In this document: positions 1 to 1,244 of the stretch, one piece after another
Position numbering within the stretch: the first letter of the stretch is position 1
How the letters are laid out: every line of letters begins with the position of its first letter
From: Reyranella sp. CPCC 100927
GTDB taxonomy: Bacteria; Pseudomonadota; Alphaproteobacteria; Reyranellales; Reyranellaceae
DNA length: 64,000 nucleotides
Direction of reading: 5' to 3'
Assembly (NCBI RefSeq): GCF_007859315.1
Contig: NZ_VOHA01000001.1
Location: forward strand, 186,001 to 250,000
The notes under the pieces: model-generated
Told to the model about the DNA's origin: nothing
The model's database searches: none
The model's input: the letters and a program-made list of their open reading frames with translations, nothing else
Position numbers and translations under genes: made by a program

Positions 1-1078
1 ATTCGATGATGCTGGATACGCGCGCATCCCGCAGCGGGGGATTGGTGCCGGTCTCGAGCGCCTCGTCGACAAGCTGATCCACCGTTCGATCGTTCAAAGT
101 TTCGGCGATCCAATTGGCCTGGCGCAAGTTACTGAATATTTCTCGTACGATCTCGCGCTTCTTCTTGGCGCTGGCGTCGTAGCCTATGACGAAGTCCCTG
201 AAGTCGTCCGTGTCGCCTGACCAAACGACGCCGCCGCCAGCTTTTGGCACGTCATTGCAGCCCACGCCGAGGATCGACCCACCATCGGAGAGGATTGCAG
301 CGCCTACCTGACGCGACAGATCAGCTGATCTCAGGGCTGCGGCCTGCGCAATGAACATGGAGTATTCATCGCGTCGGGGCGTATGGAACGGATGTCCGAA
401 AATCAGTTCAACAAACCGCCGCAGTTCTGCGCGCATCGCTGCCTCAGCACCCCATCGGAGAAACAGGTCACCCTTGGGAAAGGCGTCACGGACATTCTGG
501 CCCGTTCCGCTCCGGCCTGCGTTTGCGTCCTTCTCCACGAGGCGCTCTGCATCAGCACGATATCGGTCGCCGTTCGAATTGGACTTGGATTGCGCGATCC
601 TCTCGGCAAGACGGGCCACGCGGTCGGCGCGAGGCGCATACACCGATACAGTCAAGAATAGGTCACCATAGATCTTTCGGAGCGTCTCTATTTCCTCAGG
701 GTGTTTGAGCGAGTTGAGCAGGTAAACGACGCGCGAGGCCGGTGGGGCGTGCTCGCTGGCGTTGTCGCGACGCTCCTTGCGAATACGGGCAACAGACAGC
801 AGAGCCATGATGTCCGCGCAGTCGGTTCTCTGGCGCAAATCGTCCGCAGCATCCATGTGCGCATCGATGCGTGCCGCTTCGTCATGGGTGATTTCGGCAA
901 GATGCCCGAATTGGGTGAAGCTATGGAGGAGTGTGCTCAGTCGGACCTCACAGATCGCATAGCCGATCGCGGTGAACTCTGCCGAGATGCAGCGAATAAC
1001 AACGCGTAAGTCCGTCCCCGCAGGGCCGACCAAACCGACAATCACCTCGGGATGCCTGAGCGCTTCAATGCCGGCCAT
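1..1078 (-). CDS. Anti-phage dCTP/dCMP deaminase, AvcD/DcdV family (partial, runs off left edge)
   Basis: One uninterrupted minus-strand frame of 359 codons starts at the ATG at 1078 and leaves the window without a stop. The N-terminus has a P-loop-like GLVGPAGTDL (residues 15-24), typical of the NK-like domain of AvcD/DcdV deaminases. Around residues 235-275 comes the family signature RRDEYSMFIAQAAALRSAD, then LSRQVGAAILS and a GCNDVPKAGGG stretch. The frame ends at ...RVSSIIE. In relatives the zinc-ligand HAE motif follows within about ten residues, so the catalytic residues lie outside the window. Such enzymes deplete dCTP/dCMP during phage infection and block phage replication. AAGGGA four bases before the ATG is a good ribosome-binding site. 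The codons are AT-richer than those of the neighbours (TTA, ATA, AGA, AGT occur), which suggests horizontal transfer. A dCMP deaminase of pyrimidine metabolism is unlikely because of the N-terminal P-loop domain. Confidence 0.85.
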   Translation of the reverse strand, partial: MAGIEALRHPEVIVGLVGPAGTDLRVVIRCISAEFTAIGYAICEVRLSTLLHSFTQFGHLAEITHDEAARIDAHMDAADDLRQRTDCADIMALLSVARIRKERRDNASEHAPPASRVVYLLNSLKHPEEIETLRKIYGDLFLTVSVYAPRADRVARLAERIAQSKSNSNGDRYRADAERLVEKDANAGRSGTGQNVRDAFPKGDLFLRWGAEAAMRAELRRFVELIFGHPFHTPRRDEYSMFIAQAAALRSADLSRQVGAAILSDGGSILGVGCNDVPKAGGGVVWSGDTDDFRDFVIGYDASAKKKREIVREIFSNLRQANWIAETLNDRTVDQLVDEALETGTNPPLRDARVSSIIE

Positions 1079-1140
1079 AATGTCCCTTAAGTTGTATTGT
1101 ATTACAATAATACTATCTATATGCAAGCTTGCAAGGTTTA
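1079..1140 (-). promoter_or_regulatory. Promoter and palindromic operator candidates of the deaminase gene
   Basis: This AT-rich segment lies directly upstream of the minus-strand deaminase. Read on the minus strand, TTGCAA (1134-1129), 16 bases and TATTAT form a plausible sigma-70 promoter. Two perfect palindromes overlap it: TATTGTA-T-TACAATA at 1095-1109 and TGCAAGCTTGCA at 1122-1133. Their position over the -35 and -10 boxes fits operators for a repressor, but no regulator gene is visible in the window. In Vibrio the homologous gene is held inactive by the AvcI RNA encoded upstream; I cannot recognise an AvcI-like RNA here. Confidence 0.5.
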
Positions 1141-1244
1141 GCGCTTGTGCTTTGCACTAGGTGACGCGACCCCCATTGGGGGTGGGTGGCGCGCCGCCCA
1201 GTTCGTGGTACATGGGGCGGATTACTTCATCTCGCGAGTGTCCC

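Follow-up and report, generated by a model that had tools for sequence, protein, structure and literature searches.

Enzymes that destroy dNTPs endanger their own cell, and how they are restrained and released is the central question for the AvcD/DcdV family of anti-phage deaminases. In AvcID, a type III toxin-antitoxin system of Vibrio and E. coli ETEC, the AvcD deaminase is bound and inhibited by AvcI, whose gene lies upstream and gives an RNA of about 280 nt, and the loss of AvcI on transcription shut-off triggers AvcD (PMC10511110). For AvcD relatives, deamination, depletion of the dC pool, phage protection and control by a labile inhibitor are established (PMC10511110), and over-production of AvcD without its partner leads to filamentation (PMC9455884). 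Here we ask how a deaminase gene of this kind may be controlled at the left edge of a 64,000-nucleotide stretch of DNA, which as a whole is called the window (G000:C1:186001-250000, in a host genome of 9.08 Mb; a window position equals the L002 position minus 18000).

The preliminary description reported an unbroken frame of 359 codons cut by the window edge, and this frame is real: it starts with an ATG at window position 1078, stays open through position 1 and contains the region RRDEYSMFIAQAAALRSAD. It lies on the minus strand, which that description did not give, and its part in the window represents codons 1-359 of a gene for 509 residues, the rest of which extends about 450 bp beyond the edge.

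window 1..1078, minus strand: 5' two-thirds of the deaminase gene, codons 1-359 (ORF)
L002:17549-19078 = G000:C1:185549-187078, minus strand: whole deaminase gene, 509 residues (ORF read leftwards past the window)

The frame was also said to break off just before the zinc motif, and the assignment was made to depend on HAE and PCxxC (HxE/PCxxC) motifs in the continuation. Both are found there, as HAEMNAI (H365/E367) and PCHMC (C393/C396); H365, E367, C393 and C396 are invariant in 37 homologues, the alignment placing PCxxC at P392-C393-H-M-C396. The proposed AvcD/DcdV membership is borne out by NF041025.1, 'anti-phage dCTP deaminase' (449.6 bits, curated cut-off 400; residues 11-461, profile positions 1-435 of 437), and by the PADLOC dCTPase model (E = 4e-155). 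As both models are passed, the deaminase taken alone adds one more ordinary member to a known family, and its identity as an anti-phage dCTP deaminase is almost certain. A P-loop-like N-terminus was claimed as well, and this stands in part: the loop GLVGPAGTDL resembles a P-loop, but it is a degenerate Walker A motif without the lysine. No Walker A lysine is conserved in the 37-homologue alignment, and within the loop only the last glycine (G21) is invariant there. In the AlphaFold model (pLDDT 89.6) the nearest solved folds are adenylate-kinase-related proteins for the N-terminal half and dCMP and dCMP/dCTP deaminases for the C-terminal half, which points to a P-loop kinase-like N-terminal domain lacking the Walker A lysine. 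The enzyme is thus pictured as two fused domains: a nucleotide-kinase-like one, whose P-loop is degenerate, and a zinc dCTP/dCMP deaminase, which would turn dC nucleotides into dU nucleotides and so starve a replicating phage of dCTP.

The gene occupies a variable piece of the chromosome. Its noted AT-richness is confirmed (59.5% GC at 1-1078 vs 66.2% +/- 2.5% elsewhere; 5/310 windows are equally low), and the whole strain-variable segment that holds it has 57.0% GC. The idea that the neighbourhood may be a defence island was not supported, however. None of ten neighbouring proteins matches PADLOC, the remaining neighbourhood having been read as ORFs only, and the gene content is metabolic: flavodoxin, P450 and enoyl-CoA hydratases on one side, and an aldehyde dehydrogenase (ALDH), an SDR and other metabolic genes on the other. 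The flavodoxin and ALDH genes directly flank the deaminase unit. In two relatives of the same genus these flanking proteins are 91-93% (flavodoxin) and 95-96% (ALDH) identical whereas the segment between them differs, similarity ending at the flavodoxin stop codon and the ALDH start codon.

left edge L002:17334 (flavodoxin stop, outside the window), right edge window 1243, no strand: strain-variable segment (comparison with relatives)

In the window's genome this segment consists of just the deaminase, one small ORF and spacers, so nothing but the deaminase unit occupies this spot, which varies between strains. At the same spot, G001 carries a deaminase only 48% identical to the window's together with a transposase-like gene, while G003 carries a degraded gene in the form of deaminase fragments, one of them inverted (L141, G003:C57:136500-139900). 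In G001, a Vineibacter terrae-like relative, the transposase-like ORF (L140:2921-4150, read by eye) adjoins the deaminase unit. The deaminase locus of G001 agrees in both identity and coordinates with Vineibacter terrae NZ_VDUZ01000016, which suggests a Vineibacter-like alphaproteobacterium as the host of the window. A long inverted repeat was also observed in the window's genome between the P450 and enoyl-CoA hydratase genes (L002:15371-15460). The Rfam matches near the deaminase gene, which are sub-threshold and belong to two unrelated families, fall on this repeat (L002:15337-15460) and were discarded as unrelated to the deaminase.

The small ORF of the segment begins 22 bp past the deaminase stop codon, on the same strand and outside the window, and is here called P0002.

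L002:17341-17526 = G000:C1:185341-185526, minus strand: partner ORF P0002, 61 aa, with Shine-Dalgarno sequence AAGGAG (ORF)

P0002 has no match in Pfam, NCBIfam or PADLOC, and 12 of its relatives have none in PADLOC and isolated weak ones only elsewhere. By tblastn against the fetched deaminase loci, its best relatives lie directly behind other deaminases. An iterated profile made from these relatives was searched against every six-frame ORF of 98 loci (19,363 in total) and settled on 15 loci. In each of these the match lies at the 3' end of the deaminase gene and on its strand, and the hosts, which are far apart, include Pseudomonas, Variovorax, Geomonas, Thalassospira, Neoroseomonas, a Vibrio nigripulchritudo plasmid and a human-gut contig. 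A small ORF preceded by a ribosome-binding site follows 18 of 27 window-type deaminases, whereas among the other long ORFs of these loci 56 of 880 are followed by one (binomial p = 8e-16, a value that is nominal because the loci are phylogenetically related). A later survey of 289 alphaproteobacterial genomes yielded four unseen window-type deaminases (L166-L169). Three of them have the small protein at the same place (L166, L167 and L169; seed-profile E = 6e-7, 3e-10 and 1e-9), and L168 has a small ORF there by position only. When the small-protein profile was searched against these 289 whole genomes (E <= 0.001), it matched the window's genome and two others only, each time directly behind a deaminase, at about 50-65 bp in the two others; the third new locus, L166, fell under the threshold of that search. 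Among 398 genomes of the phylum it matched the window's genome only (E <= 0.001), and in both surveys (398 and 289 genomes) the window-type small protein was seen only beside a deaminase.

The linkage is tight, and the small proteins themselves are highly divergent. Among 13 sequences just two positions, A14 and W21, are invariant, and no stretch of the family is conserved enough for an alignment-based scan of viral contigs. L003, L010, L014 and L017 have a partner ORF by position only, and no recognisable small protein is present behind the window-type deaminases L004 and L099. The single-sequence fold of P0002 suggests, with modest confidence, two helices (3-19 and 23-31) around a WP motif (pLDDT 71, too low for a fold search). 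A phage protein family of 55 positions, phrog_38465, gives a weak profile match to P0002 (E = 9e-6) and to two relatives in this helical WP motif; the match may reflect a shared short motif only, and no genomic context was found for the family's members. Apparent matches to the small protein in Nankokuvirus phages lie inside ORFs of about 390-535 aa (E about 0.1) and were set aside as chance. Two plasmid-borne loci carry a larger hypothetical gene of about 170-180 aa that overlaps the deaminase 3' end (L163:3667-4185, Pseudosulfitobacter; L164:3545-4084, Rhizobium CIAT894).

Comparison of related loci bears on whether the small ORFs encode proteins. In such pairs differences are about two to ten times more frequent at synonymous sites than at non-synonymous ones, as in L011/L013 (pS = 0.60, pN = 0.22, p = 2e-5), L053/L059 (pS = 0.68, pN = 0.26) and L087/L118 (pS = 0.88, pN = 0.47), with a coding signal likewise in L100/L101; for three pairs all six frames were compared, and the coding frame gave the strongest signal each time. 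Codon-level selection of this kind shows that the small-protein family is translated. The partner nevertheless evolves faster than the enzyme (62% vs 92% amino acid identity in L011/L013, synonymous divergence being high in both). As expected of a protein antitoxin (type II-like), a small gene is found in the same unit as the enzyme and is conserved with it, and we are highly confident that the deaminase and P0002 form a two-gene unit.

The role of the second gene can be approached by comparison with known systems. With AvcID the unit shares the enzyme family, the domain order, the zinc motifs, the expected depletion of the dC pool and a second small component encoded beside the enzyme. It differs in that this component is not an upstream RNA but a protein of 61 aa, translated from a gene behind that of the enzyme, and the ETEC enzyme is only about 32% identical to the window's deaminase. 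The window's protein passes both models of DcdV, the dCTP deaminase of Tal et al. 2022 (PADLOC dCTPase, NF041025.1), but those entries describe a single protein whereas the unit here has a second gene. In Sofic-AS1, a Fic-domain toxin serves in defence and a short antitoxic protein is encoded downstream of it (PMC12249575). The genetic logic is the one proposed here, in which a small gene behind a toxic defence enzyme would neutralise that enzyme through its protein product; the enzyme of Sofic-AS1 is unrelated, and the likeness is one of gene arrangement. No protein partner of an AvcD/DcdV deaminase was found in the literature searched, a body of work without the two founding papers of 2022. 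The small partner gene is new, and the deaminase and partner together are a new variant of the AvcD/DcdV systems.

By analogy with AvcI, P0002, a predicted helical protein of 61 aa from the same unit, would most likely bind the deaminase and keep it inactive in uninfected cells, in parallel to the RNA in vibrios. Phage shut-off of host gene expression would lead to loss of P0002 and thereby free the enzyme, and the protein would in this sense replace the RNA regulator. We infer the interaction, the direction of regulation and the phage trigger of the unit, and the linkage, the coding signal and the AvcI parallel lead us to lean slightly towards P0002 being an inhibitor. The overall picture of a two-gene anti-phage unit, in which the small protein most likely acts as a labile inhibitor of the deaminase, seems reasonably probable.

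Other explanations begin with the enzyme itself. A metabolic dCMP or dCTP deaminase serving dTTP synthesis and having no defence role would agree with the C-terminal dCMP_cyt_deam domain and with the dCMP deaminases among the nearest solved folds, yet it appears very improbable given the two-domain architecture and the NF041025.1 equivalog score, which is above its cut-off while the housekeeping models stay far beneath theirs (curated equivalogs: ComEB 52.4 bits vs 219, TadA 18.4 vs 150, RibD 17.6 vs 156). Best matches confined to housekeeping enzymes, the outcome that the preliminary description had warned of, were therefore not obtained. Further points against a metabolic role are the patchy occurrence of the deaminase (about 4% of genomes in the surveys), the few full-length copies among 61 relatives, its strain-variable, AT-rich spot and its relatives on plasmids and viral contigs. 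Judged from these sequence features, an anti-phage role of the deaminase is very probable. Scans of viral contigs with enterobacterial deaminases gave no matches. Two deaminases of alphaproteobacterial type (L058 and L064) were observed on OY282369.1, a 3.17 Mb chromosome labelled Cenarchaeum (archaeon), perhaps a mislabelled assembly. A defence deaminase might still work alone or under an AvcI-like RNA, the downstream ORF being a hitch-hiker or belonging to a 3' RNA without protein function, and here the upstream region is informative.

window 1079..1243, no strand: intergenic stretch (165 bp) separating the start codons of the divergent deaminase and ALDH genes
window 1107..1134, minus strand: sigma-70-like promoter TTGCAA-16-TATTAT for the deaminase (consensus match only)

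In favour of this explanation, AvcID is the only arrangement found described in the literature searched, and the predicted fold of the upstream 165-nt RNA is somewhat better than those of shuffled sequences (z = -2.85). However, a gap of only 165 bp is too short for an AvcI-type RNA of about 280 nt, so that the antitoxin RNA directly upstream that defines type III AvcID is not found at the window's deaminase. The promoter search returned one site, with 0.2 expected. Its second hexamer stops 28 bp short of the deaminase start codon, which predicts a leader of only about 20 nt, and the Rfam search found no match at the deaminase gene. The recurrence of the small ORF at the same position in unrelated hosts and independent surveys, and the protein-level selection on it in several pairs, strongest in the coding frame, also speak against a downstream ORF without protein function, and we regard the explanation as improbable. 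A shorter RNA element may be present upstream, or an RNA elsewhere.

The main rival of inhibition by P0002 is a role as an activator, adaptor or phage sensor that switches the deaminase on upon detecting a phage product. Such a protein would give the same linkage and the same fast evolution as an inhibitor: the partner evolves much faster than the enzyme, as expected for a part that meets changing phage proteins, and the types of small-protein sequence differ between clades. The antitoxin gene comes first in many toxin-antitoxin pairs, and the second position of P0002 therefore counts against reading it as an inhibitor. Fast evolution fits antitoxins too, however. For the characterised AvcD, the partner acts as an inhibitor and not as an activator, transcription shut-off being the trigger (PMC10511110), and making the enzyme in excess without that partner leads to filamentation (PMC9455884). 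A labile inhibitor agrees better with this behaviour than an activator does, and we consider the activator or sensor role rather unlikely.

Small ORFs beside the deaminase also occur in other parts of the family, where the partner architectures follow the clades of the deaminase tree. In the sister clade, made up mostly of Rhizobiales and relatives, the deaminase is not followed by anything comparable; instead a divergent small ORF lies just upstream, about 20-120 bp from the deaminase, in 40 loci. These ORFs are coding according to codon-level selection and represent five sequence types (12, 13, 6, 3 and 6 loci, some IMG/VR entries being near-duplicates), each found at significant E-values only at the divergent upstream position; L146 is an unseen locus of the RRGP type found later (E = 4e-7). 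Profile comparison makes it probable that the RRGP type and the downstream, window-type family are homologous (hhalign P = 5e-5; 0/40 column shuffles as good). The RRGP type alone is linked in this way, homology to the window-type small protein not being shown by hhalign for the divergent DFR, MAG, YYWL and YKW families. Our tentative suggestion, which we hold at somewhat less than even confidence, is that the AvcD/DcdV family in general has a small regulator protein as its second component, encoded after the enzyme in the clade of the window's deaminase, divergently upstream in the Rhizobiales-type one and co-directionally upstream in gammaproteobacteria.

Co-directional small ORFs were observed directly upstream of the deaminase in gammaproteobacterial AvcD-type loci and a gut contig, where AvcI is described:

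L090:705-887, co-directional: upstream small ORF
L091:124-306, co-directional: upstream small ORF
L122:2209-2394, co-directional: upstream small ORF
L160:1702-1872, co-directional: upstream small ORF
L161 (ends 51 bp before the deaminase), L150, L152 and L119: further loci with upstream co-directional small ORFs

These ORFs have a common C-terminus, 'A..(I/L)(I/L)..(A/S)(S/Q)K(I/L).W-stop', with synonymous codon variation at conserved positions and ribosome sites before several of them; the upstream ORF of the ETEC locus (L086) is without this A..W-stop C-terminus. If the gammaproteobacterial ORFs are functional, the published avcI constructs need re-examination at the level of start codons.

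An unstable RNA is the only restraint mechanism found described for the family in the literature searched. If small proteins are indeed a general component, many members would be protein-controlled, and the RNA-antitoxin model would cover part of the family or be incomplete. The single-protein models that annotate AvcD/DcdV miss half of the unit. A small partner common across the clade provides an experimental handle on how these enzymes are held in check, as it involves two genes, one of them 61 codons long.
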